From assembly GCA_027314645.1 (NCBI GenBank), contig DAHVAL010000013.1, positions 1 to 50,678 on the forward strand: a DNA stretch of 50,678 bases. The letters are read 5' to 3'. The position numbers were made by a program, and so were the translations under genes. The first letter of the stretch is position 1. Each line of letters starts with the position of its first letter. The DNA is from Nitrospirota bacterium. Its GTDB lineage: Bacteria; Nitrospirota; Leptospirillia; Leptospirillales; Leptospirillaceae. The notes under the pieces were generated by a model. That model searched no databases and was not told where the DNA came from. It saw nothing but the letters and a program-made list of their open reading frames with translations. This document shows, in pieces, positions 15,730 through 29,138 of the stretch.

Positions 15730-15809
15730 CCGAAGTCTTTCCGACGCCGTCGAATCTTTCCCCTCGATTTTAACGAGGGTGTTATTTTGTCTGTTTGAGG
15801 AGGAAATCC

Positions 15810-16163
15810 ATGCCACGCGTAAAGGGCGGCCCCCAAACCCGGGCACGCCGAAAAAAAATTCTCAACATGGCCAAGGGGTACTGGGGAGGACGTTCCCGTC
15901 TGTACCGGTCGGCCCGACACACGGTTGAAAAAGGCCTCACCTATGCGTACCGGGACCGGAAGGCGAAAAAAAGGGACTTCAGAAGTCTTTGGATTCAACG
16001 CATCAACTCAGCCTGTCGCCCGCAAGGGGTCAGCTATAGCCGGTTTATCTCGGGACTCAAAAAACTGGGGATCGCTCTCGACCGGAAAATTTTGGCCGAC
16101 TTGGCCTTGAATCAGCCCGAAGCATTTTCCGATCTTCTCAATAAGGTCAAGGCTGCCGGCTGA
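15810..16163 (+). CDS. rplT: 50S ribosomal protein L20
   Basis: The 117-aa protein has the L20 signature ([33 protein letters not shown]... then [21 protein letters not shown]). The ATG at 15810 is chosen because AGGAGG precedes it and L20 always starts MPRVK/MARVK. In several bacteria L20 represses rpmI-rplT translation; the 80-base gap to rpmI could hold such a site, but I see no clear structure. Confidence 0.98.
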
Positions 16164-16189
16164 CCTTCCCTCTCCGGGCAACACTCTCT

Positions 16190-16218
16190 CACGGGCGCCA
16201 AAAAACGCCCGTGTTTCC
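16190..16218 (+). terminator. Rho-independent terminator after rplT
   Basis: CACGGGCG and CGCCCGTG form an eight-pair stem around an A-rich eight-base loop, followed by TTTCCTTTCCC. It closes the thrS-rplT transcript. Confidence 0.8.
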
Positions 16219-16310
16219 TTTCCCTTCCACCCCAAGGAAACGCCGTCCCCGACAAGTTTTTTCCACCTTGCCCCGACAATGGAGAAAAATAACGGATATT
16301 TGGATTTCAT

Positions 16311-16338
16311 GAGTGATTTTGGATTTTCAAAATCACTC
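16311..16338. repeat. Perfect 11-base inverted repeat with 6-base loop
   Basis: GAGTGATTTTG and its exact complement CAAAATCACTC are separated by GATTTT. It lies in an AT-rich stretch between the rplT terminator and the ORF6N gene. There is no T-run after it, so it is not a standard terminator. It may be an operator or a remnant end of a small mobile element. Confidence 0.6.
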
Positions 16339-16364
16339 CGATATTCAATCCTGATTTCTATTTT

Positions 16365-16395
16365 TTGATTGACCTTCCGGAATCGGCTCTATAAT
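16365..16395 (+). promoter_or_regulatory. Possible promoter of the ORF6N gene
   Basis: A consensus TATAAT at 16390-16395 lies 52 bases before the ATG. The -35 is less clear: TTGATT with a 19-base spacer or TTGACC (16369) with 15. Confidence 0.45.
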
Positions 16396-16447
16396 CTTGA
16401 TTCGGAATGTATGATCGATTGTCTTTCCCTCCTTTCCAGAGGAGCCG

Positions 16448-16993
16448 ATGCCCGAATCCCTTCCTCCCATTCCGATCGAATCCATCGTTTCCCGAATTTT
16501 TCTCATCCGTGGTCAAAAGGTCATGCTCGATTCCGACCTGGTCGCATTATACGGGGTTGAAACGAGGGTTCTCCTCCAGGCGGTCCGGCGAAATCCGGAC
16601 CGGTTTCCCTCTGACTTCTCCGTTCAAATTGACGAAGATGAATGGAATTCTTTGAGATCACAAAGTGTGACCTCAAAGGGAAGGGGTGGCCGACGCTATC
16701 TCCCATTTGTATTTACGGAACACGGAGCCATCATGGCCGCAACGGTTCTCAATTCGCCATTGGCGGTCGAAATGAGTGTCTTTGTGGTCAGAGCCTTCGT
16801 GAAACTCCGGGAAATGCTCTCCACGCACAAAGAACTGGCCCACAAGATTGAGGAGCTTGAGAGAAAATTGGGGGTTCACGACGAGGCCATCATCGGGTTA
16901 TTCGAGGCGATCAAGCAACTGATGGACCCACCGGCAGAGAAACGAAACCAGATCGGATTCATATCCGCCAAGGAGGGGAAAGGGGCCTCCTGA
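16448..16993 (+). CDS. ORF6N domain-containing DNA-binding protein
   Basis: The N-terminal ~90 residues match the ORF6N pattern: IFLIRGQKVMLDSDLVALYGVETRVLLQAVRRN, then RFPSDFSVQ, then RYLPFVFTEHGAIMAATVLNSP. This fold occurs in phage antirepressors and in many chromosomal proteins next to mobile elements. The C-terminal half (about residues 115-165) is a charged heptad-like helix (LAHKIEELERKL), probably a coiled coil. The 181-aa protein is apparently complete. The ATG is preceded by AGAGGAG. Its stop codon abuts the start of an ISL3 transposase remnant, and with the nearby inverted repeat it marks an accessory island. Confidence 0.85.
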   Translation: MPESLPPIPIESIVSRIFLIRGQKVMLDSDLVALYGVETRVLLQAVRRNPDRFPSDFSVQIDEDEWNSLRSQSVTSKGRGGRRYLPFVFTEHGAIMAATVLNSPLAVEMSVFVVRAFVKLREMLSTHKELAHKIEELERKLGVHDEAIIGLFEAIKQLMDPPAEKRNQIGFISAKEGKGAS

Positions 16994-17505
16994 ACCTTCC
17001 CCTCGACCGCATTCTTCAGACCGCGGACACCGACAGGGACTATCGCATCAGAATCGATCCCGTCTCCCCTCCGGAACGCTGCGTCCATTGCGGGTCCGAA
17101 GCCTCCCGACGATACAGGGAATGGGGCGATTGACTCGCCCCGGGAATCCGGACGGCCTCTGGATCCCTCATGACGGCTTTCCAGACTTGGGAGGGGCCGA
17201 TCCCCGCTTATTTCAACCACCGGGCCACGAATGCCTGTACGGAATCGGCGAACACTCTGATTCAGGCGGATCAACGGATGGGGAGGAGGGACAGCTTCAA
17301 CGTGCCCCGCACCCGGATCCTGTTCGCCCGACATGGCGCCCACCGGATGAAGCCATTTCGGAAACCAGGTCTTATGAGACGCCCAACTCGTGCGGAGGCG
17401 GAACTTGGAGATGGCGTGCCATCGACAGACATTGAGCCGGAGGAAATCAGTCAGGGAGTGGAGACATCAACACTTCCGGAACTGATCGAGAATGGAGAGG
17501 TCTGA
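16990..17505 (+). pseudogene. Decayed ISL3-family transposase
   Basis: The N-terminal part reads LNLPLDRILQTADTDRDYRI...ERCVHCGSEASRRYREWGD, like the N-terminal zinc-finger region of ISL3 transposases, then hits an in-frame TGA at 17131. After it, still in the same frame, the sequence jumps to a C-terminal ISL3-like block (AYFNHRATNACTESANTLIQ, then RMGRRDSF and RILFARH). The catalytic middle of about 250 residues is missing. So this is an internal-deletion remnant. The N-terminal start codon is lost (CTG in place of ATG). I could not find clear terminal inverted repeats around it. Confidence 0.75.
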
Positions 17506-17528
17506 TTTTCAATCGATCGCGGAATGTA

Positions 17529-18314
17529 TTGGCCCATCTTATTTTTCTTTTCAGTCCGACCAGTATTTGCTTTCTTTCCGGTCTCGCGCTTTTTCTTCAC
17601 CCTCAGGGTTCCCGAGCACAAGACGATCCCAGCTCCATTTTTGAACTGTCGGGAGGAGAAATGGTCTTTTCGCAAAAGGCCCAGTTCTATTACGGCCAGA
17701 TTGGCGACCTTGTCCCACTTTCTTCGCTCTCGTCCCTCTCGTCAGACGGAAAGATCCCGTACCTTCATGTTTTCGTCGCCGGAAACGTCATTTCGTTTGC
17801 CCAGCCGGCGGTCGATCCTTCGGAAGCGGTCAACGGAATCACCTACCAATCCTACGAAGGCGTCATTCCCGCAGTCGGAATCCAGATCCCGACCTCCTGG
17901 GGGTTTTGGGAAGGAGACCTGGGAGGGGCGTTTTTCCTGGTGGACCAGACCAATACGCCCGTTCAGTCCATCGAAGGACTCTACGCACAAACGGAGGTGC
18001 ATCTCGATTCTGTGGGAAAGGGGGGACTGGATCTCATCGGCAGCTATATCGGAGAGATCAACTATCTTTTTGGTATGGGGCGGTATCTGGTCCCGGTCGG
18101 CTCTGTCGGACACGGGACCGTTTCGTTTCTTGCCGGTCCGGAGGGCATCGCCCAAGGGAACAATATCTATTTCGCCTTGCAGGGGGGCGGGATTCTGTCG
18201 GCCTATATCCGACCGATCCACACCATTTTGACCCTAGAGGGCGGAGTTCTGAATTCCTCCGCATGGCCAGGGATCGGCGAATATGAAGGATTTTCCTTCT
18301 ACTTCTCTTACTGA
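17529..18314 (+). CDS. Predicted secreted or outer-membrane beta-rich protein
   Basis: The first ~30 residues form a signal peptide with a hydrophobic LIFLFSPTSICFLSGLALFL core and a likely cleavage near SRAQD. The 230-residue remainder is rich in Gly, Ser and aromatic residues with alternating strands (for example AQFYYGQIGDLVPL, WGFWEGDLGGAFFLVDQ and FSFYFSY at the very C-terminus). An aromatic final residue is typical of outer-membrane barrels. The start is a TTG at 17529 with weak ribosome-site support; another frame opens at 17524 but lacks these features. It follows the transposase remnant directly. The family is not recognised. Confidence 0.6.
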   Translation: MAHLIFLFSPTSICFLSGLALFLHPQGSRAQDDPSSIFELSGGEMVFSQKAQFYYGQIGDLVPLSSLSSLSSDGKIPYLHVFVAGNVISFAQPAVDPSEAVNGITYQSYEGVIPAVGIQIPTSWGFWEGDLGGAFFLVDQTNTPVQSIEGLYAQTEVHLDSVGKGGLDLIGSYIGEINYLFGMGRYLVPVGSVGHGTVSFLAGPEGIAQGNNIYFALQGGGILSAYIRPIHTILTLEGGVLNSSAWPGIGEYEGFSFYFSY

Positions 18315-18329
18315 AAGAAGATCAAAAAA

Positions 18330-18359
18330 GGCGGCCACCGGAAGGCGCCGCCCGAAAAA
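18330..18359 (-). terminator. Terminator between the two convergent genes
   Basis: On the minus strand GGCGGC, an 11-base loop and GCCGCC are followed by TTTTTTGATC, so it ends the small secreted-protein gene. On the plus strand the same stem lies 16 bases after the barrel gene but lacks a good T-run. Confidence 0.7.
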
Positions 18360-18381
18360 GCGAATTCGTTCATACCCGGCT

Positions 18382-18741
18382 TCAAGGGGTCGAAGTGGAA
18401 TTGCCCGGCGAAGGAGCACCGGGATTCGCTGTTCCCGTCGCCGTATCCGACACCGAATCGCCGTGCTGTCTTGCAACATTCGACAAGGTTTGCCCGGTCA
18501 TTCCGGACTGCGCGTCCTTCGAGATCGTCTTTCCCTGGGTGTCCGCAACGGCCGCGACTCCCGTTCCGAAATTCGCCGCCGGCGGGCTCATGTGCACCAT
18601 TCCCATATTTGCCGCACCGACGGGATGGACGGGAGGAGGAGCCCCACCAGGATGGGCCTGGGAAATGCCCATCGATAGGCCCATCATCGCGAAAAAACCC
18701 ACTACCATCCCTGCCCTCTTTGTTCCGATCGAAATGGTCAT
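18382..18741 (-). CDS. Small secreted protein of unknown function
   Basis: The 119-aa protein starts MTISIGTKRAGMVVGFFAMMG...SQAHPGG, a clear signal peptide with cleavage after SQA. The mature N-terminus is rich in His, Met and Pro (HPGGAPPPVHPVGAANMGMVHM), which could bind metal; this is only a suggestion. The rest is Ser/Thr/Gly/Ala-rich and looks disordered. The ATG at 18741 is preceded by GAGGAGG; an upstream ATG in frame at 18765 lacks this. It is transcribed alone from a promoter at 18787-18815. Confidence 0.65.
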   Translation of the reverse strand: MTISIGTKRAGMVVGFFAMMGLSMGISQAHPGGAPPPVHPVGAANMGMVHMSPPAANFGTGVAAVADTQGKTISKDAQSGMTGQTLSNVARQHGDSVSDTATGTANPGAPSPGNSTSTP

Positions 18742-18786
18742 GACCGCCTCCTCTCCATTTTTCATGAAGAAAACTTATTCTTGCTC

Positions 18787-18815
18787 AAGGTAATGAAATA
18801 TCGATTTTAAGTCAA
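18787..18815 (-). promoter_or_regulatory. Promoter of the small secreted-protein gene
   Basis: On the minus strand TTGACT is followed after 17 bases by TACCTT, about 45 bases before the start codon. Confidence 0.45.
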
Positions 18816-19003
18816 CATACTGAAGCGGGAAATCATGATCAACCTCGCGTGGAATGCTGCCATCAATAGAAGTTGTCTCGGATGAAATCCGCGAGAAACG
18901 GGATCAATCACCATTTCTGACGCTGAACAGAAAAGTCGGAGTTTACATCAAAGTCAATCACGGAATCTAAATACCCAAAATAACTTTGACTTCTTCCCTG
19001 TGA

Positions 19004-19036
19004 ATGATGAAAATAGATTAAAATGATAAAAATAGA
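19004..19036 (+). repeat. Two 14-base direct repeats, 19-base period
   Basis: ATGATGAAAATAGA (19004-19017) and ATGATAAAAATAGA (19023-19036) differ at one base and are 19 bases apart, about two helical turns. They lie 60-100 bases before the diguanylate cyclase gene and could be a regulator-binding pair. Confidence 0.5.
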
Positions 19037-19061
19037 CCTGAGGGAAGCCATGCATTTTTTT

Positions 19062-19091
19062 CTCATAAGATTATAAGATCGTTATTATGAG
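19062..19091 (+). promoter_or_regulatory. Hairpin overlapping the ribosome site of the diguanylate cyclase
   Basis: CTCATAA (19062-19068) is the exact complement of TTATGAG (19085-19091), and the second arm contains the GAG of the Shine-Dalgarno GAGGTGA. Folding would hide the ribosome site. Confidence 0.45.
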
Positions 19092-19099
19092 GTGATATG

Positions 19100-20149
19100 A
19101 TGGACGTCCGGTATGCTGAAAGCATGGAAGAAAGTGCGGAAATTTTAAGGCTTGTGCTCCAGAAAATGTCTGAGTGGCGACTTTCCTTTACGCCTGTTCA
19201 ATACACGGTCGTTTACGAGTATGTCACCAATATCAATTCGAGTCTCAAAAAATCGGTCGACGACCTGCTCACCGCGGGATCCCTTACGGATAAAACGATC
19301 GAAGAAGCCTATTACAGTTGCATCATCCCAGAGCAAACATTGCCGGTCCTGGAACAACGGGGCCTGCTCACGCAGGAAACCCTGGACGTCTTGAACCGCA
19401 TGTCGGAATCGGCCAAAGCCACCATGCAAACGACCCAGAAAGCCCGCTTCGGAATCCTCTCCCAGCATAAAGCGCTCAAATCAGCAGAAATCGTCGATGC
19501 CTCCCTCCTCCAGTCGGTGATTGCCCAACTTGCGGGCGAAACCAAAAAACTGCTTGATTCGAGCGAAGCCCTCGAAAACAACCTCCGGGACAGCCGCCAG
19601 GAGATCGAAAATCTCCGCAGCGAACTTCAGGCTGTCGCCCAAGCCTCAACCATTGATCCATTGACTGGAATCGCCAACCGGCGCGGGTTCGAAAAACTGC
19701 TCGGCGAGCGTCTCTTGGTCCAGGAAACGAAATTGGGAAACAGCTCCTTTTTGTTCCTCGATATCGACCATTTCAAGAAAATTAACGACGACTTTGGCCA
19801 CATCGTGGGAGACCGGGTGCTTCAGGCCGTTGCCAAGTTGCTCAAAGCCAAGACCCGTGGGGAGGATATCATCGCTCGGTTCGGAGGAGAGGAATTTGTC
19901 GTGGTTCTTCCGGGAACTCCGATCGACAAGGCCCATATTGTCGCCGAGAGCATCCGGCAGAATATTGAACGCATTACTCTCTTGAACGAGAAGGCCAAAA
20001 AGACGATCGGGTCGATCACCGTCTCCATCGGAATCGACAGCCACAAGGCTGGCCAGGATTGGCATGAAACGATCCAACATGCCGATAAGGCCATGTACCA
20101 ATCCAAACAGAGCGGACGAAACCGCATCACCACCTATTTCAAGAGCTGA
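19100..20149 (+). CDS. Diguanylate cyclase (GGDEF protein), probably cytosolic
   Basis: Makes cyclic-di-GMP from two GTP. The C-terminal domain (about residues 185-345) begins DPLTGIANRRGF and carries RFGGEEF, an active GGEEF site, preceded by RGED, the RxxD product-inhibition site at the correct five-residue distance. The N-terminal ~180 residues have no membrane segment and are mainly helical, ending in a coiled coil (EALENNLRDSRQEIENLRSEL) that should drive dimerisation. The N-terminal region resembles the helical partner seen in DgcP-like cytosolic cyclases; this is tentative. The second of two adjacent ATGs is chosen for spacing to GAGGTGA. It converges on the giant c-di-GMP gene with a 17-base gap. 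Confidence 0.93.
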   Translation: MDVRYAESMEESAEILRLVLQKMSEWRLSFTPVQYTVVYEYVTNINSSLKKSVDDLLTAGSLTDKTIEEAYYSCIIPEQTLPVLEQRGLLTQETLDVLNRMSESAKATMQTTQKARFGILSQHKALKSAEIVDASLLQSVIAQLAGETKKLLDSSEALENNLRDSRQEIENLRSELQAVAQASTIDPLTGIANRRGFEKLLGERLLVQETKLGNSSFLFLDIDHFKKINDDFGHIVGDRVLQAVAKLLKAKTRGEDIIARFGGEEFVVVLPGTPIDKAHIVAESIRQNIERITLLNEKAKKTIGSITVSIGIDSHKAGQDWHETIQHADKAMYQSKQSGRNRITTYFKS

Positions 20150-20166
20150 GGGTTCTCAGGCCCCTT

Positions 20167-23100
20167 TCACACGGTTTTTCTCCGTTTCGCCCGCGATCCC
20201 TTCCGAAGGGTCTCTTCCCGGAGAATGGCTTCGGCAAACTCTTCCATCAGTCGGTCCGCGCCGGCAAGGTCGGACTCCACAATGGCGCGATCCTTCGGGA
20301 TATTTTGTATGAGGCGCCCCAGTTCTTCATGATAGCGGGCATGGATCCGCACAATCTCGCTCCCGTCAGAAATTTCCAAGGTGCTCATCCCTGGTCGCAG
20401 AGGGCACCTCCTCTCGTCAGCCAGCATTTCCGGATCAAACACATACGGGCTATTTAAAAGAACGTTCCGCGTCAGTCCATGAAGGCGCATCATGGCGGCG
20501 TAAAGGCCGAAAAGGGTGGAGGGGGTGTCCTTTCTCTCAGGCAAATGGCTCCGGAGGAACTTCTTCAAGGAGGCAAGGGGAAGGGGACGGGAGATCGCAT
20601 ACCCCTGAAGTTCATCGACCCCCAAGAGTCGGATGGCGTCGGCGATTTCGAGGGACTCGACCTCTTCCACCGCAAGGCGAAGCCCCATGCGATGCGACAG
20701 TTCCAGCACCGCCTCGACAAAATGCAAGTCCTTCGGCCGCTTGTCGAGGGTTCGGATAAATCCCTGGCCGAGCTTGACCTTGTCCACAGGGATTTCCTTG
20801 AGCCGCAGGAGTGAGGAATAGGCGCTTCCAATGTCGTCCAAGGCGAGGTGCACTCCCATCTTCTTGATCTGCTGCAGGTATTCGATGGCCAGCACCGTCT
20901 CCCCGAACTCGTGGCCTTCCAGAATCTCAAGGACCAGGTGGGACGGGTGGATTCCGGACTCCTTCATCATGGCTTTACAGGAATCGAGACATTTTTTCGA
21001 GACCGACCGGGGATCGATATTGACCGACACCCACAAGCCGGGGACAAGTTCCTGAAGGGACGGGAGGACAGACAGGCATTGTGCGAGGACCTGCCGGGAA
21101 AGCTCGAAAAGATCCTTTTCGCTCAAATCGGGCAGGAACGCGTCCGGAAGCAGGATCCCCCCAGAAGGTTCCCGAAGACGGGCCAGGGCTTCCACCCCCG
21201 AGATTCGGCCGGAGTGATTGTCCAGAACGGGCTGGAAATAGACCTCCACCATCCCGTCGGCCAGAAGTTTTTGGGGGCGGGAGAGGATCAGCGGAAGGGG
21301 CTCTCCCTGGATGATCCATGAACGGGACCGATCCTCCTTGTGCCCCTTGGAGAGATAAAGGGCCTGATCGGCACGCCTTAACAGAAGATCCGGGTTCTCC
21401 TGGCTCTCTTGGGGATCGTAAAGAGCCACCCCCATGGAAACCCCCACCGACACCGACTCCCCTTCCGCAAGTTCGATGGGATTCCTGAGCCCCTGATCGA
21501 TCCGCGCAAGAAGGTCTTCAAGCTCGGGGGGACCGTTGAAGTTCTCAATGACCAGGACGAACTCGTCTCCTCCGAGACGGGCGATAAAGTCCGTCTTGCG
21601 CAGGAACCTGTTAATGCGGTCTCCCAGGAGGCGCAGGACCCGGTCCCCCGCCTCATGCCCGAACCGATCATTCACCGGCTTGAACGCATCGAGATCGAGA
21701 ATGACCACAGCCAGAGACCAATGATACCGGGCCGAGCGCGCGATCGCCTTGAGAAGCTCACGATCGAGTGCCCGCCGGTTGGGAAGACCGGTCAAGCGGT
21801 CGTGGCGGGATTCGTATTCGAGCTGACGCGTCAGATTGACCATTGCCGTGATGTCACGTTGATTGCCCACGAATTCGACAATTTTCCCGGAGAGGTCCCT
21901 CACGGGACTGATCGACAGAAGGTTCCAGAACTCGGACCCATCCTTCCGGTAATTGAGGACCTGTCCCTGGAACGAGCGCCCTTCCCGGACCGCTCCCCGA
22001 ATGGCCTCCACCGTGGTCGGGTCGGTTTCGGGCCCCTGGAGCAGGCGGCAGTTCTTTCCCAAAATTTCCTCTTCCGGATACCCGGTGACGGAGGTAAAGC
22101 CTCCGTTCACGAACACGACCTTGCCGTCGGGATCGGTGATCACCACCCCTTCGCCTACCGCCTCCACCGCTTTCGAGAGGAGGATCTGATGGCTGACGAG
22201 GTCCATCCGGTCCAGGCCGTCTGAGAGACTCCGAACCAGTTCGACAAGGAACCCTTCCAACACGGGATTGTCGAATCCGTCTCCTTTTTTGCTTCCAAGA
22301 TCAAGGATGGCCCAGATCTTCCCGTTCCTGGCGATCGGGAGATACGCCCCAGAACGGATCCCGTAACGCCGTGCATTCTTCGCCAAGGCATCGTCTTCCG
22401 AGGAAAGGTCGCGCACCTTGACCAGGGAAAGGTCCCGAACCAGCCTGTCCGAGACCGACTGGCCGGCCACTTCAGGGGCTTCCAGCGGAACCCCGTGGAA
22501 AAACCCGACCTCTCCCGAGGCCCCCAACATCAGAACCTCTCCCTCGTTTCCTGGCCGCCTGACAGCCGCGGCCGCCATCCCGCCAAATTGAATGATGGCG
22601 TCGCAAATCGATTGAAAAAGGGCCGCCTCGTCGGACCCCGACGACAACAGTTCGCTCACTCGGGCCAGAAGGGTGTTATAGGAGGACAGGAGCCAGAGTT
22701 TTTCGACCTGGGCATGGCGTTCGGTCACATCGTATAGCGTCGCGACCACCCAGTCCGAATCAGGGAATCGGGTGATGGAAAGATCGACCATCACAGAACT
22801 CCCGTCCTTTTTGACCATGGAGACATCGGGAATGCTCACGATGTCTTTGGAGGACAGGAGGCTGTAAGCAAACCCGACCCGCTCGTACTCTTCCGAATCG
22901 GGATACAAGACCCGCGTGGACTGGCCGACAAGGTCTTCCGCACGGTCATATCCGAACATCTGAAGGAGCCGATCATTGGCATAGCGGATCTGACGGTGCT
23001 CAAGCAAAAAGATTCCCGCAAGGGTGCTTCGCAGAAGGACCTTCTGGAAGGCCGCATTTTCTCGCTCGTTCCGGAGGAATTCCAGCCGGTCGAGACCCCG

Positions 23101-25773
23101 CGACACATCTCTCGCAATCTCGACAAGGACCTCCTGGAGAGGGACGTCAAAGGTCCCCGGCTTTCCGAGATAGAGCGTGAGGAAGCCCCAGGTCCTTCCC
23201 TTCCGAACCACCGGAAGCGCTGCCTCGTTCATGAGGGCGTGTTCTTTCGCCCGGTCGGCCTCCGGGGTCCCAGCCAGGGAGGAGAGGAGATCATAGTTGA
23301 AAATGGGACGGCCGCTCCGCCACACTTCTCCGACCGCTCCTCGGCTGGGGGAATGGGGCGGGTCAAGCGAAATTTCAAGGCCGTCGAGAAAGGCGGTGGC
23401 CCCCGATTTGGCGACCACCTTCACATGGAGGTCCTCCTCCGGTATCCCGATCCAGGCCAACCCGAACTTTCCGTACTGCACCGCAAGGTCGCAGATCGCC
23501 TGCATCAGTCCCGGTTCATCCCGGGCTTCGGCGATCGCCTGATTGACCTGGGCGAGGAGTGCGTTGAAGTCGGAGAGACGGATGATGTCCTGGGAGAGGC
23601 GATGGCGTTCCGTCACATCGACGAGTGTCCAGACCACCGTCTTCTCTCCTTCGGACACCAAATGCCCTTCAATGTCCACATACCTTTCCTGTCCGTCGGA
23701 CGTGATCATGCGAAAGTCACGAAGAAGGGTCCGACCCTCCCTCAGGACCCGTTCCACGGCCTTCTTGGACAGATCGACATTCTCCTCCCCCCAGGAAAAG
23801 AACGATTGAACGGGCCTGCCCACAACCGACTCCGACTGGTCCACCCCCAGGATCTTGAGAAACCCCCGGTTCGCTTCCTCAATAATCCTTTCGGGATAGC
23901 GGACCAGGGAGATTCCCGCGGTCGTATTGGAAAGAAGGCTCTCTTTGAGGGAGGTGGCCCGCCGCTCAGCTTCGGCAAGGTCGATCCGGTCAAGCGCCAG
24001 GGAAAGGCTCTTCGCGATCGATTCGAGCAGGAGACCAAGGGCGGGATCGAACGGCTCCTCATGATCGAGATAGACGGTGAAAACGCCCCAGCCCCGTCCG
24101 TTTCGGCTCACAGGGAGGGTGGCACATGCGGCGAGGCCGAACATCCGGGCGCGGGCACGCCACGGCTTCATGGTCTCGGAGGTCTCAAATGAGGAGATGT
24201 AGATCGGGCCGCCCTCGCGCCAGCATTTGCCCCCCGGCCCCTGTCCCTCCAGAATATCAGCCCTCACTGAAATGGAAATCCCTTCAAGATAGGCGGTCTC
24301 GCCGGCGATCCCCATCATTTGGAAGATTCCCTTTTCGTCCGGCCGACCCACCCACACCAGGCGGATTCCTGGGACCTCCATGGCCAACCCACAAAATTTC
24401 TTCATGATTCCTTCGTCGTCCGTCGCGTCCGACACCGCTTCGGCGACATTCGCCCGGAGGAGGTCGAAGGTCATGAGGCGCTCAAGATAGAGGTTTTTTT
24501 CTTGGAGACTCCGTTCCAAGGCCCGGCGTTCCGTCACATCGAATCCCCAGGTGACGAGATAGAGGGGGAGGCCGCCCCGATCCCGAATGAGGGTCCCGGT
24601 CCAGTCAAAGATGCGTTGCTCCCGTCCCGGGAGGATGAGAGGACACTCGAAACGGAGCGGAACGGGGAGCTCTTTCTGCCCTTCGAACACCCCGTGGATC
24701 GACCTTGAAATGTCCGGAGGAAGGAACCGCTCCCAGATAAAAGGCGTTTCCCGGACCTCGGAGAGGGACACCCCCAGGATCTCTTGCCCCGTCCGGGTGA
24801 GACGAAGGATGGTCCCCGAGCGATCAATGACAAATCCCACGGCTCCGGAAGAATCATAAAAACTCTCGTTGAGGCTTGAAAGTTCGAAGATTTCCTTCCC
24901 CTGGATGTCCTGTCGCCGGACAAGGGCGCGGATTCCCCATCCCATGAGCAGGAGGAAGAAGACCCCTCCCTCTTCAAGCCCCCATCGGCCTTTGCTTTTT
25001 TTTATCCATCGCTCAAACAGGGAGGACGGGTGCCAACCGACCCTGATGGCAAAAGGAGTCTTTGGGACGGGGACCTGGACGAAGCGTCGGGACCCGGAAC
25101 GTCCTTCCGTGGGGGGAAGATTGTCAGGTGAGACCGCGAGGGCGTCTCCCGTCCTCAAATCCCACAGGGCATAGCTCCATCTGTCCAGAGGAAGGCCCTT
25201 CAACAAATCCTGGACATTGAGATCGATCTGAAATCCGACCCGTTCCTCTTTGGGCGCGGGAAGATAGCTGATCTGGAGGAGCGTTGTCCCGAGGCGCCGT
25301 GAGAAGCGGCTTTTCCCGACGAGAAAATGGGGATTTGAAAACAGGGTCGAAATGGGAAGGGTCCCGGATCTTACAAAGGTCGGCGTGAGGACCGTGCGGC
25401 GTCCCACCGACCAAAGACGTTTTCCGTTGAGGGGATCGAAGATCTCGAGATACGTCAGGCCAGGATGAATGGACAGAAAGATGCGGATGGTTCTTTGGGT
25501 GGCGGTGTCCGGGGAGGTAAAGGGCCGCTCTCCCCCAGGGAAGAGCGAGACGATCGTTCCCAGATCGAGCAATCCGGAGGAGAGGCGATTTGAAATCACC
25601 GACGCGCGCAAAAGGGCTGCCCGCATCGCCACGTTTTTCATCTTTTCCTGAAAAGCGTGGAAATTCTCCTTTTCGAAAATCCCGACCCCGAAAACGGCCA
25701 ACAAAATGGGGCCAAGCACGAGAAGATCGATGCCCCGCCCGATGAAAAAAGGCTTTTTAACCATGCGATCCAT
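20167..25773 (-). CDS. Giant membrane sensor: PAS/GAF array-LOV-GGDEF-EAL-CZB cyclic-di-GMP protein
   Basis: The protein has 1868 residues. Order: TM helix 16-33; periplasmic sensor ~34-267; TM helix ~268-285; PAS ~300-415; GAF ~430-600; PAS ~605-720; GAF ~730-895; PAS ~905-1018; GAF ~1025-1190; LOV-type PAS 1198-1309; GGDEF ~1320-1480; EAL ~1495-1740; C-terminal CZB-like domain ~1750-1850. The LOV domain has GKNCRLLQG with Cys1242 plus Asn1274, Asn1284 and Gln1305, the full flavin-binding set. GGDEF is intact (RLGGDEF), with an RKTD inhibition site. EAL keeps Glu1528, Asn1585, Glu1616, Asp1646/1647, Lys1667 and Gln1723, but KID reads KLG. The CZB-like domain has His1765, Cys1790 and His1811/His1815. 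The ATG has GGGGAGGAGG upstream. It follows pheT by 37 bases. Confidence 0.92.
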   Translation of the reverse strand: MDRMVKKPFFIGRGIDLLVLGPILLAVFGVGIFEKENFHAFQEKMKNVAMRAALLRASVISNRLSSGLLDLGTIVSLFPGGERPFTSPDTATQRTIRIFLSIHPGLTYLEIFDPLNGKRLWSVGRRTVLTPTFVRSGTLPISTLFSNPHFLVGKSRFSRRLGTTLLQISYLPAPKEERVGFQIDLNVQDLLKGLPLDRWSYALWDLRTGDALAVSPDNLPPTEGRSGSRRFVQVPVPKTPFAIRVGWHPSSLFERWIKKSKGRWGLEEGGVFFLLLMGWGIRALVRRQDIQGKEIFELSSLNESFYDSSGAVGFVIDRSGTILRLTRTGQEILGVSLSEVRETPFIWERFLPPDISRSIHGVFEGQKELPVPLRFECPLILPGREQRIFDWTGTLIRDRGGLPLYLVTWGFDVTERRALERSLQEKNLYLERLMTFDLLRANVAEAVSDATDDEGIMKKFCGLAMEVPGIRLVWVGRPDEKGIFQMMGIAGETAYLEGISISVRADILEGQGPGGKCWREGGPIYISSFETSETMKPWRARARMFGLAACATLPVSRNGRGWGVFTVYLDHEEPFDPALGLLLESIAKSLSLALDRIDLAEAERRATSLKESLLSNTTAGISLVRYPERIIEEANRGFLKILGVDQSESVVGRPVQSFFSWGEENVDLSKKAVERVLREGRTLLRDFRMITSDGQERYVDIEGHLVSEGEKTVVWTLVDVTERHRLSQDIIRLSDFNALLAQVNQAIAEARDEPGLMQAICDLAVQYGKFGLAWIGIPEEDLHVKVVAKSGATAFLDGLEISLDPPHSPSRGAVGEVWRSGRPIFNYDLLSSLAGTPEADRAKEHALMNEAALPVVRKGRTWGFLTLYLGKPGTFDVPLQEVLVEIARDVSRGLDRLEFLRNERENAAFQKVLLRSTLAGIFLLEHRQIRYANDRLLQMFGYDRAEDLVGQSTRVLYPDSEEYERVGFAYSLLSSKDIVSIPDVSMVKKDGSSVMVDLSITRFPDSDWVVATLYDVTERHAQVEKLWLLSSYNTLLARVSELLSSGSDEAALFQSICDAIIQFGGMAAAAVRRPGNEGEVLMLGASGEVGFFHGVPLEAPEVAGQSVSDRLVRDLSLVKVRDLSSEDDALAKNARRYGIRSGAYLPIARNGKIWAILDLGSKKGDGFDNPVLEGFLVELVRSLSDGLDRMDLVSHQILLSKAVEAVGEGVVITDPDGKVVFVNGGFTSVTGYPEEEILGKNCRLLQGPETDPTTVEAIRGAVREGRSFQGQVLNYRKDGSEFWNLLSISPVRDLSGKIVEFVGNQRDITAMVNLTRQLEYESRHDRLTGLPNRRALDRELLKAIARSARYHWSLAVVILDLDAFKPVNDRFGHEAGDRVLRLLGDRINRFLRKTDFIARLGGDEFVLVIENFNGPPELEDLLARIDQGLRNPIELAEGESVSVGVSMGVALYDPQESQENPDLLLRRADQALYLSKGHKEDRSRSWIIQGEPLPLILSRPQKLLADGMVEVYFQPVLDNHSGRISGVEALARLREPSGGILLPDAFLPDLSEKDLFELSRQVLAQCLSVLPSLQELVPGLWVSVNIDPRSVSKKCLDSCKAMMKESGIHPSHLVLEILEGHEFGETVLAIEYLQQIKKMGVHLALDDIGSAYSSLLRLKEIPVDKVKLGQGFIRTLDKRPKDLHFVEAVLELSHRMGLRLAVEEVESLEIADAIRLLGVDELQGYAISRPLPLASLKKFLRSHLPERKDTPSTLFGLYAAMMRLHGLTRNVLLNSPYVFDPEMLADERRCPLRPGMSTLEISDGSEIVRIHARYHEELGRLIQNIPKDRAIVESDLAGADRLMEEFAEAILREETLRKGSRAKRRKTV

Positions 25774-25810
25774 AACGGTCGACCTCCTCCCCTGACGAAG
25801 GAATCACCGA

Positions 25811-27526
25811 TCAGGACAAAAGCAGACCCTCGAGATCCACCTCAAAACAGACGGTGGGCATCCGGATTCCCCAGAGATCGAGGGTGGCCGGATGGACTTC
25901 GCCCACCGTTCCCACCGTCTCCCCTTTTCCATTTTCATACACGCCGCATCGCCCCGGAAGATAGGGAGGAAGGTCGGCGGAACGAAGGGAGAGGGTCCGG
26001 TCCATCCTCTCCAACACCATTTCGAGAATTCCCAGAAGTTCGGACACGCTTGCCTGTGGGTGAGAGAGCATCCCGGACAGAAGCCAAAGATCCTGAACCG
26101 GGCGTTCCCCACCGGACAAGGAAGGGCCGAGGCGCATCGCTTCCCCGATTTCGAAGATCTTATGGGGATAGGGAAAGCGGCTCGATCGGGCTTCGGAGGC
26201 CAAGAGCCCCGACAGGAGTGTCGGACGCACGACGGCAAACTGGAGACTTGCCGGATTGTCGATCCGTACGAGATCGTTCCTTTCCCGGCCGAGCCGTTCG
26301 GTGACGAGAGGCTCACCCGTCAAGATGTTCGACAGGAGCTCCTGGAAGCCCATCGCCAGGAGGGCGGTTCTGAGACGGAATTCGGCCTTCTGGCGGGGGG
26401 AAGGACGGCCACGTGTGAAGTCCTTGGGAAGGGCCGGCTCGAAGGTGTCGTACCCCTTCGCCACAAGGTAATCCTCAACGACATCCACCGCCCCGAGAAG
26501 ATCGTCCCGGTAAAACGGCGAAAGGACCTCCCATCCGGCCTCGCCGTTTTCCTCCCTGCGGAGGAACTGGGGATATCCGAAGCTTGACAGGGTCTCCACA
26601 AAGTCGGCCGGATCGCGTTCAGATCCGAGCACACGGGAGGGGAGACCCTCGGGCACGAACACCGTGATCTCGGGAAAGGCAGGGGCGACCATCCGGAAGT
26701 TGTCGCCCTCGGACAGGAGCGGTTCGATCACAAAGCCGCGGTCGGCAAGGTTGGCGGCCAAAATGTTCAGGACCAGCAGAAGCCTTGCAGCATCAAAGCC
26801 GGTGGCTTCAACAAACAGCTCTTCGTCCTGCGGCGTCACCTCTCCCAGGGCGCGGGCGTTGATGACCGGGGGAAAAGACAGCACCTCCCCCCGCCCATCG
26901 ACCAGGATCGGCCAAAAAGCATGGGGGGTGACCAGATCCCCATAGGCCTGTCCCTTTGGGTGGGTCGACACGATGTCCCGAAGCGTCAGGCTCTCCTCCG
27001 CCCCCAAGGGGATGAATCGGGTTCCTTCAGGATCGGCCGTTCGATAGGTTAGGGGAAAGGCAAGCCGGGCAAGGGGATACACCCCGATCGCCACATCCGC
27101 CCTCTTGCGGCCGAACAGCTCGGAGAGGCGTTCTTGGGTCCCGATCAGCTGGGTCAGCCCCTCGTCCCCAAGATGGCTCCCGCGGGCGCAAAACCCGCCG
27201 AGAAACGGACGGACCGACGCAACGGACGGGTCGATCCGGATGTCGGGCGCTCCCCCCTTCCGGTCACGGGCGGACGCCTTCTCGAGAAAATCGTAGGGCT
27301 TCTGGTGAAGGGCGGACCCGCCCCGCAGCTGGCGGGCGATTCCCTCAACGCTCCAGAGGTCGGGACGGTTGGTGTCGTTGAGCTCGACCTTGAATCGCCG
27401 GGACCCCGGATCGTAACTCTTCCATTCCCCTTTCACCCGATCAAGGGTCCGATCCATTTCCTGGGGAGTCACCTTCTGGTGGAGAAGTCCCAGGAGGTCG
27501 TCAAAGTGTCCTTCCAGTGTCGGCAC
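25811..27526 (-). CDS. pheT: Phenylalanyl-tRNA synthetase beta chain, archaeal/eukaryotic type
   Basis: The beta subunit of the (alpha-beta)2 enzyme charging tRNA-Phe. It is 571 aa, the short form; typical bacterial PheT is about 800 aa with an N-terminal EMAP-like tRNA-binding domain and a C-terminal ferredoxin-fold anticodon domain, both absent here. It shows VELNDTNRPDLWSVEGIARQLRG, the B1-domain pattern of archaeal PheT, the B3/B4 editing region and a catalytic-like C-terminal module (PSPRQKAEFRLRTALLAMGFQELLSNIL). The start is GTG with GAGG upstream, 16 bases after pheS. Confidence 0.92.
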   Translation of the reverse strand: MPTLEGHFDDLLGLLHQKVTPQEMDRTLDRVKGEWKSYDPGSRRFKVELNDTNRPDLWSVEGIARQLRGGSALHQKPYDFLEKASARDRKGGAPDIRIDPSVASVRPFLGGFCARGSHLGDEGLTQLIGTQERLSELFGRKRADVAIGVYPLARLAFPLTYRTADPEGTRFIPLGAEESLTLRDIVSTHPKGQAYGDLVTPHAFWPILVDGRGEVLSFPPVINARALGEVTPQDEELFVEATGFDAARLLLVLNILAANLADRGFVIEPLLSEGDNFRMVAPAFPEITVFVPEGLPSRVLGSERDPADFVETLSSFGYPQFLRREENGEAGWEVLSPFYRDDLLGAVDVVEDYLVAKGYDTFEPALPKDFTRGRPSPRQKAEFRLRTALLAMGFQELLSNILTGEPLVTERLGRERNDLVRIDNPASLQFAVVRPTLLSGLLASEARSSRFPYPHKIFEIGEAMRLGPSLSGGERPVQDLWLLSGMLSHPQASVSELLGILEMVLERMDRTLSLRSADLPPYLPGRCGVYENGKGETVGTVGEVHPATLDLWGIRMPTVCFEVDLEGLLLS

Positions 27527-27542
27527 ATCATCCTCACGTCAA

Positions 27543-29138
27543 TTAGGGGGATTCTTCCATCGCAACCTTCATGCCGGACTTCCAGGCCCGGGAGCGTTCT
27601 TCCGAGCGTGTCATTTGGGCAAGCGTCGACAAATCCCCGGTGAAAAGATCCCGAATATCCGACAGTCCGAGCCGGAACATGGCCATTCGGTCGATGCCCA
27701 TTCCCCAGGCGATCACCGGAACATCGACTCCCAGAGGATGGGTCACCTCGGGACGAAAAAGGCCCGCTCCGCCCAGCTCCATCCACCCAAGGACGGGATG
27801 GTGGGCGTGAAGTTCGACCGACGGCTCGGTGAAGGGAAAATACGCGGGCTTGTAGTGGACCTTGTCGACCCCCGCGATTTCCCGGGCCAGGAGGGCAAGA
27901 AGCCCGAGAAGGGTCCTGAAGCTGGCGGTCTCTTCAAGCACGATTCCCTCCGCCTGGAAAAAGTCCACGGCATGGGTGGCGTCGACCTGATCATGCCGAA
28001 AACATCGGGCGATGGCAAAGTACTTCCCGGGAACCTCGGGGTTTTCCGCCATGGTCCTTGCGGACAGGGCGGTCCCTTGGCTTCGCATGAGGAGGCGCCG
28101 CGACTGGCCCGGGTCGAACCCTTGACGCCAGCCCCTCGTGGAGGTCGGTGGTTCGCGGCCTTCATGGGTCCGGGCCACCGCCTCGAGGGGCCATTCGGCG
28201 GTGTCGGAGGCGGTGCGGGGTTCGGAGAGCAGATAGATGTCATGAATGTTCCGTGCGGGATGGGTCTGGGGAATGAAGAGCGCATCCATATTCCAAAATT
28301 CGGGTTCGACCAGGCTTCCCGTCATTTCGGCAAATCCGAGGCGCACCAGATGGCTGCGGACCTCTTCGAGAAACTCCCGGTACGGGTGAAGATGGCCGGT
28401 CGACGGGCGGGGCGGGGGCGTCTCCAGCGAATAGGCCCGGAAGGATTTTCCTGCCCAGCTTTTGTTCATGAGCATTTCGGGAGTGACGGCCCCCAGGAGG
28501 GACTCCGTCGCCTCAAGCTCTTTGATGTCGAGGGAACAGTCGGGCGACAGGCAACAGGACTTCGTGGCCCGTTCGTCAAACCGCAAAAGTCCTTTTCCCT
28601 TGCCTCTGCGACGCTGGTATTGTTCAAGGAGTCCCTGGTCTTCGGGGGAGAGCCCCTCAAGGGTGACCGGGAGGGAGGATTCGGCGATGGTCCCGAGAAG
28701 GGTCCGAAGGCGCTTGATCCCCTCCGGGAGTTCCCCGTTCCGGTACACCAGGCCGCCTTCCCCGATGCGGATGGTGCCGCTTTCCTTGAGGGCCCCCACC
28801 GCCTTGGAGGCAATGGTGGAATCCGGGAAGAGCTCCCGGATTTCCTTCATCTCCCGGGGACCCCCCGACAATGCGTCCATGATGCGCTCCTCCGGAAGTC
28901 CCGCCGTGAGAGCTTCTTCTCCTCCCTCGGTGACGGTGAGGACCGTCTCCAGCCGATCGACCTTCTCCGACAAAAAGGATTTGGCCTTGAGCCATTCCAC
29001 CCCCATCTGGACCTGCGCCGGATCAAGGCCGGACCGTCGTGCGATTTCCGGGAGGGGGAGATGGGTCTCCCGATCGGGGAGGGCAAGAAAGGCGCGGAGG
29101 ATCGCTCGTTCAAGAGGGTGAAGGGAAGAAGAGGACAT
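27543..29138 (-). CDS. pheS: Phenylalanyl-tRNA synthetase alpha chain, archaeal/eukaryotic type
   Basis: The catalytic subunit, 531 aa against about 330 for typical bacterial PheS. The N-terminal ~200 residues are repeated winged-helix-like segments (LPEIARRSGLDPAQVQMGVEWL, then EERIMDALSGGPREMKEI), as in archaeal and eukaryotic FRS-alpha. The class II catalytic domain follows: motif 2 with FAIARCFRHDQVDATHAVDFFQAEGIVLE, TEPSVELHAHHPVLGWMELGGAGLFRPEV, and motif 3 with VIAWGMGIDRMAMFRLG. These are clear matches to the archaeal type. The ATG lies one base after the oppF stop. Confidence 0.93.
   Translation of the reverse strand: MSSSSLHPLERAILRAFLALPDRETHLPLPEIARRSGLDPAQVQMGVEWLKAKSFLSEKVDRLETVLTVTEGGEEALTAGLPEERIMDALSGGPREMKEIRELFPDSTIASKAVGALKESGTIRIGEGGLVYRNGELPEGIKRLRTLLGTIAESSLPVTLEGLSPEDQGLLEQYQRRRGKGKGLLRFDERATKSCCLSPDCSLDIKELEATESLLGAVTPEMLMNKSWAGKSFRAYSLETPPPRPSTGHLHPYREFLEEVRSHLVRLGFAEMTGSLVEPEFWNMDALFIPQTHPARNIHDIYLLSEPRTASDTAEWPLEAVARTHEGREPPTSTRGWRQGFDPGQSRRLLMRSQGTALSARTMAENPEVPGKYFAIARCFRHDQVDATHAVDFFQAEGIVLEETASFRTLLGLLALLAREIAGVDKVHYKPAYFPFTEPSVELHAHHPVLGWMELGGAGLFRPEVTHPLGVDVPVIAWGMGIDRMAMFRLGLSDIRDLFTGDLSTLAQMTRSEERSRAWKSGMKVAMEESP

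Follow-up and report, generated by a model that had tools for sequence, protein, structure and literature searches.

Proteins in which a LOV domain stands ahead of GGDEF and EAL domains are already well known, also from non-phototrophs. In the Synechococcus elongatus protein SL2, blue light activates c-di-GMP hydrolysis (PMC8846402), and a LOV-GGDEF fragment of the M. loti LOV-GGDEF-EAL protein WP_140774521.1 is a cyclase repressed by blue light (PMC9098866). RmcA from Pseudomonas aeruginosa, a membrane-anchored GGDEF-EAL protein with several PAS domains, is a redox-tuned phosphodiesterase in which the LOV-like fourth PAS domain (PASd) lacks the adduct-forming Cys and is reported to be an FAD redox switch (PMC8846402, PMC12540587). 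LOV photoreceptors have been proposed to have arisen from redox flavoproteins (PMC4682037). The window, a 50,678-nt stretch of DNA from a Nitrospirota bacterium, encodes a protein of this type that, taken alone, is an ordinary further member of the group. More unusual is the finding that four related species carry this gene at the same place with Leu instead of the Cys and the rest of the flavin pocket kept.

The protein is encoded by a giant ORF of 1868 aa (20167..25773, minus strand) that lacks internal stop codons and has a plausible ribosome-binding site upstream. Pfam identified three PAS-GAF pairs, a fourth PAS domain (aa 1200-1310), a GGDEF domain (aa 1323-1481) and an EAL domain (aa 1502-1730) which, with the reading frame, give the order N-terminal region, three PAS-GAF modules, LOV, GGDEF, EAL and C-terminal helical domain. 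The N-terminal region has two likely transmembrane helices with an intervening stretch, as judged by eye from hydrophobicity. The PAS-GAF modules, recognized as several stretches that match PAS and GAF families, occupy aa ~300-1185 (22219..24876, minus strand; approximate boundaries).

The initial annotation had proposed an intact LOV signature at 21847-22182, within the fourth PAS-type domain and directly before GGDEF-EAL, and all of its particulars hold. Residues 1198-1309 map exactly to 22182..21847 on the minus strand, Pfam places the GGDEF and EAL domains directly after this fourth PAS-fold domain, and Cys1242, Asn1274, Asn1284 and Gln1305 are all at the positions given, with the N-x-R-x-L-Q frame present. 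The GKNCRLLQG signature (aa 1239-1247) is encoded at 22033..22059, with the codon for the adduct-forming Cys1242 at 22048-22050, and is followed on the same strand by the codons for Asn1274 (21952..21954) and Asn1284 (21922..21924), flavin ring contacts by homology, and for Gln1305 (21859..21861), by homology the signalling glutamine. There is one small departure in the motif, with the usual Phe of NCRFLQ being Leu in the window protein (NCRLLQ) and Ile in the Cys-bearing orthologs. When a LOV-only profile, constructed from 26 Cys-bearing LOV domains of unrelated organisms (Pseudomonas, haloarchaea, rhizobia, a cyanobacterium and others), was applied, aa 1198-1309 scored 136 bits, compared to 21 and 9 bits for PAS3 and PAS2, respectively, and no match for PAS1. 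The NCBIfam YtvA family aligned to the LOV stretch alone, with 142 bits, and its whole-protein cut-off was not reached.

Structural comparisons gave the same result. In a phmmer search of the PDB, the best match had an E value of 9.6e-35, and LOV proteins (phototropin, aureochrome, YtvA and the Chloroflexus and Meiothermus LOV domains) made up nearly all of the 60 best matches. The first clear non-LOV entry among these 60, 28 bits lower, is 3ewk, which we take to be the FAD-PAS domain of MmoS. The AlphaFold model of the domain, generated flavin-free, has a pLDDT of 93.2 and a pTM of 0.82; all 50 PDB matches listed in the fold search with this model are LOV domains, with E values down to 1e-14, and it superimposes on CagFbFP, a flavin-binding LOV domain, with an rmsd of ~0.6 Å and a TM score of 0.90. 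A chance occurrence of the motif, or an ordinary PAS domain, is ruled out by the contrast in LOV-profile scores and the PDB ranking. Judged by its sequence, aa 1198-1309 constitute a complete, canonical LOV domain, with the reactive Cys, on a c-di-GMP protein. Sequence, profile, fold and conservation among the orthologs all strongly support the idea that a LOV domain of the flavin-binding type feeds into GGDEF-EAL. No second LOV domain was found in the genome, which is 95% complete; three further matches, with 29-32% identity, are PAS domains that do not have the motif.

The output domains are also complete. The GGDEF domain (21331..21807, minus strand) has an intact GGDEF motif and an RxxD I-site (RKTD-FIARL-GGDEF), and E1528, N1585, E1616, D1646, D1647, K1667, E1703 and Q1723, the canonical catalytic set of EAL domains, are all present in the EAL domain (20584..21270, minus strand). 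Two EAL residues, both encoded within 20659-20769 (minus strand) and both near catalytic residues, are peculiar to the window protein. At aa 1669, Gly replaces an Asp that is invariant in the orthologs (KLD to KLG) and, at aa 1704, Glu replaces their Gly (EGVE to EEVE); these changes may weaken the phosphodiesterase activity. The C-terminal helical domain (aa ~1748-1868; 20170..20532, minus strand) is predicted with a pLDDT of 87 and found no family or fold match in Pfam, PDB-profile and fold searches. A zinc-binding CZB identity was considered and not adopted as, with no match in these searches, the only hint is an invariant H/C/H/H pattern. The His, Cys-Pro and HxxYH-type residues (H..CP..HxxYH), invariant across the orthologs, may form a metal site.

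Directly upstream of the LOV gene, across a 37-bp gap, is pheT (25811..27526, minus strand), which encodes the Phe-tRNA ligase beta subunit and was named from its sequence and the pheS-pheT order. On the other side, a 350-aa GGDEF protein, a diguanylate cyclase, is encoded convergently (19097..20149, plus strand). Within the limits of their contigs, 13 genomes of the genus share this organization, with pheST on one side and the convergent cyclase and rplT on the other; it is complete at loci L104, L106-L109, L111, L113-L115 and L117, and contig-limited parts are present at L105 and L110. Across the rplT-pheST neighbourhood (15795-29138 in the window), the LOV gene and convergent cyclase are found together in every ortholog with a contig that reaches there. 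An ORF6N-domain protein is encoded between rplT and the cyclase in the window (16448-16993, plus strand); such proteins are often phage-linked.

The Cys is kept in nine positional orthologs, the window protein included, and is replaced by Leu in four (L113, L114, L115 and L117). In the eight other Cys orthologs, the Cys is invariant, as are the two flavin-contact Asn residues and the signalling Gln, and the LOV domain is 66-72% identical to that of the window protein; the Leu versions are 64% identical to the window LOV domain and 77% identical among themselves. Among the sensory domains, LOV is conserved best: the window protein and six Cys orthologs share 71% identity in it, as compared to 37-60% in the PAS and GAF domains; the value for GGDEF is 69%. 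The third PAS-GAF module is missing from L107, L113, L114, L115 and L117, and LOV-GGDEF-EAL is retained despite this variation in module number.

The protein is probably an enzyme of c-di-GMP turnover, anchored in the membrane and fed by several input domains, the last of them a working LOV photosensor. As the LOV domain is the most conserved sensory part, the GGDEF motif, I-site and canonical EAL residues are present, and SL2 and the M. loti protein provide precedents, LOV-gated, light-regulated turnover of c-di-GMP is the best explanation. As expected for the LOV family, the domain would bind FMN (or FAD), and blue light would then generate an adduct between Cys1242 and flavin C4a. Protonation of flavin N5 would shift Gln1305 and the beta-sheet, a signal that the connecting helix between LOV and GGDEF (aa ~1310-1320) would relay to alter the GGDEF/EAL dimer. 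Cellular c-di-GMP levels, and hence attachment or motility, would thus track light along with the signals sensed by the remaining PAS and GAF domains and by the N-terminal ones. By analogy with SL2, a first guess is that the output is a light-tuned phosphodiesterase. That the host is apparently a non-phototroph, possibly living in the dark, may speak against a photosensor and, as one clade of positional orthologs has no Cys, the gene does not depend on the adduct for its role in every species.

The Leu codons are CTT, CTC or CTG, at least two base changes away from the TGC or TGT used for Cys. All four Leu orthologs keep 8 of the 8 other pocket residues tested, a retention with a hypergeometric p value of 0.027 when they are considered alone and 0.005 with the window protein included, values that ignore relatedness and are indicative only. 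When all Leu versions, the window protein and the outgroup LOV domains are combined, 7 of the 8 residues are kept (p 2e-5, again ignoring relatedness and indicative only). In a tree of the effector part, constructed without the LOV columns, the window protein and positional orthologs group together (92/99) and the four Leu versions form one clade (99/98) located beside the Cys-bearing L107 (100/100). The LOV-domain tree has the same Leu clade (96/93). Change counts cannot strictly distinguish gain of the Cys from its loss, but loss is the simpler reading since the outgroups carry Cys. Gain of the Cys from a Leu ancestor is less likely, with Cys present in the outgroup LOV domains and most lineages, and three changes needed in the outgroup-rooted LOV tree. 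Compared as a measure of relaxed constraint on the LOV domain in the Leu clade, the ratios of LOV to effector divergence, 1.11-1.51 in this clade and 0.31-1.60 in the Cys orthologs, overlap.

The sister species encode LOV-like domains in abundance. The LOV core motif is present in 23 of 296 genomes sampled from the phylum, 16 from the family of the window and 7 from one other family. The exchange of Cys for Leu with the rest kept also occurs in paralogs L125 and L126, and in L127 and L135 from another genus. In L120, L123, L124, L128 and L129, the Asn that precedes the Cys is replaced by Asp or Ser, and L124 also lacks the Gln. Paralogs L131-L134 have a degenerate LOV pocket, and L136, L138, L139 and L142 are PAS domains without LOV residues; all of these are still positioned ahead of GGDEF. 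The genomes that have the Leu version of the fixed-place gene also encode other Cys-bearing LOV-like domains (L119, L121 and L130, with L120 in the Asp form), so that LOV light sensing need not vanish from the cell. Together, the orthologs and paralogs in the genus form a natural series that leads from a photoreceptor towards a possible redox flavosensor.

The assembly (2.04 Mb in 69 contigs) is 95% complete and the window has a GC content of 59%; two loci from one other member of the family have 50.6 and 54.6% GC. Leptospirillum group I and group III have GC contents of 50.1 and 57.5%, respectively (PMC7231039). The host, probably a member of the Leptospirillaceae, is perhaps close to Leptospirillum group III and is likely an acidophilic iron oxidiser. 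The window encodes proteins of the pyruvate:ferredoxin oxidoreductase type, which would suit reductive-TCA autotrophy. The suggestion in the initial annotation that a blue-light or flavin-redox input to c-di-GMP would be unexpected if the host is a chemolithoautotroph of dark habitats is upheld in part: an iron oxidiser is likely, but LOV-GGDEF-EAL proteins are common in non-phototrophs (Pseudomonas and others). A flavokinase gene, which favours the photosensor reading, is present in the genome. Against that reading, no photolyase of the PF03441 family was found in this 95%-complete genome; such photolyases are present in 11 of 21 genomes from the family and, across these genomes, themselves incomplete, there is no visible link between photolyase presence and the state of the Cys. 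A search of an open-access library, with most subscription journals outside its scope, found no literature that pairs Leptospirillum with a LOV domain.

Other functions can be envisaged for the domain. The flavin might be bound with redox state or oxygen as the physiological input, as is the case for RmcA PASd, NifL and Aer; the Cys would then be ancestral or tune the flavin, and any light response would be incidental. Light and redox inputs are inseparable by sequence, but the Cys-to-Leu orthologs add weight to this alternative, as their LOV domains remain constrained and keep the tested pocket residues. The likeness to RmcA points the same way, as does the persistence of signalling via flavin reduction in LOV proteins without the Cys (PMC4682037). 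Sensing redox state would also make sense for an iron oxidiser. A redox role alone, however, gives no reason for the Cys to be invariant, as it is, in all nine Cys orthologs, the window protein among them, and both the sequence and fold matches in the PDB are to LOV domains rather than to the FAD-PAS group, so that we regard this reading, although a serious rival, as unlikely for the window protein. It is very improbable that the domain is a structural relic, a LOV fold without flavin in a protein driven by its other domains. Pocket decay does occur in the genus, in the degenerate and PAS-type paralogs listed above, but the window protein and its orthologs keep the residues that those paralogs have lost, and none of their sensory domains is better conserved than LOV.

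With a LOV photosensor as the preferred reading for the window protein, a tentative extension is that the fixed-place gene comes in two forms, one a photoreceptor with a Cys-LOV domain, the other a sensor of redox state (or photoreduction) in which Leu has replaced the Cys and the pocket is kept. If true, acidophiles would offer a natural case of a blue-light receptor turned fairly recently into a flavin redox sensor, with L107 still present as its Cys-bearing sister. The ortholog series makes this step, in which the Cys is lost and the pocket kept, the reverse of the proposed origin of LOV photoreceptors from redox flavoproteins, testable on close relatives with the same output domains. It would also bear on the control of c-di-GMP, and so possibly of attachment, among relatives of bioleaching bacteria.

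In comparison with the systems described so far, the window protein is similar to SL2 in having a canonical LOV domain directly before GGDEF and EAL, but is extended by a membrane region at the N terminus, three PAS-GAF modules and a helical domain at the C terminus, and comes from an apparently non-phototrophic host. The M. loti protein WP_140774521.1 shares the order LOV-GGDEF-EAL but lacks the Gln, which is present along with the Cys in the window protein. The nearest solved structures, CagFbFP (the LOV domain of Chloroflexus aggregans Cagg_3753) and MrLOV (Meiothermus ruber), are 50-55% identical in the fold alignment with rmsds of 0.6-1.6 Å; both come from histidine kinases rather than from a c-di-GMP enzyme. 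In architecture, the window protein resembles RmcA, in that both are membrane-anchored and have several inputs, with a LOV or LOV-like fourth PAS domain followed by GGDEF-EAL. The window LOV domain differs from PASd in having the Cys, a point on which the Leu orthologs come nearer to RmcA. These orthologs also resemble the natural Cys-less LOV domains (LOV*), exemplified by halobacterial BAT, in which the pocket is kept and the Cys replaced (PMC4682037). The LOV* replacements named there include Ala, His and Pro; here the replacement is Leu, and it occurs within one genus, in positional orthologs of Cys-bearing genes.
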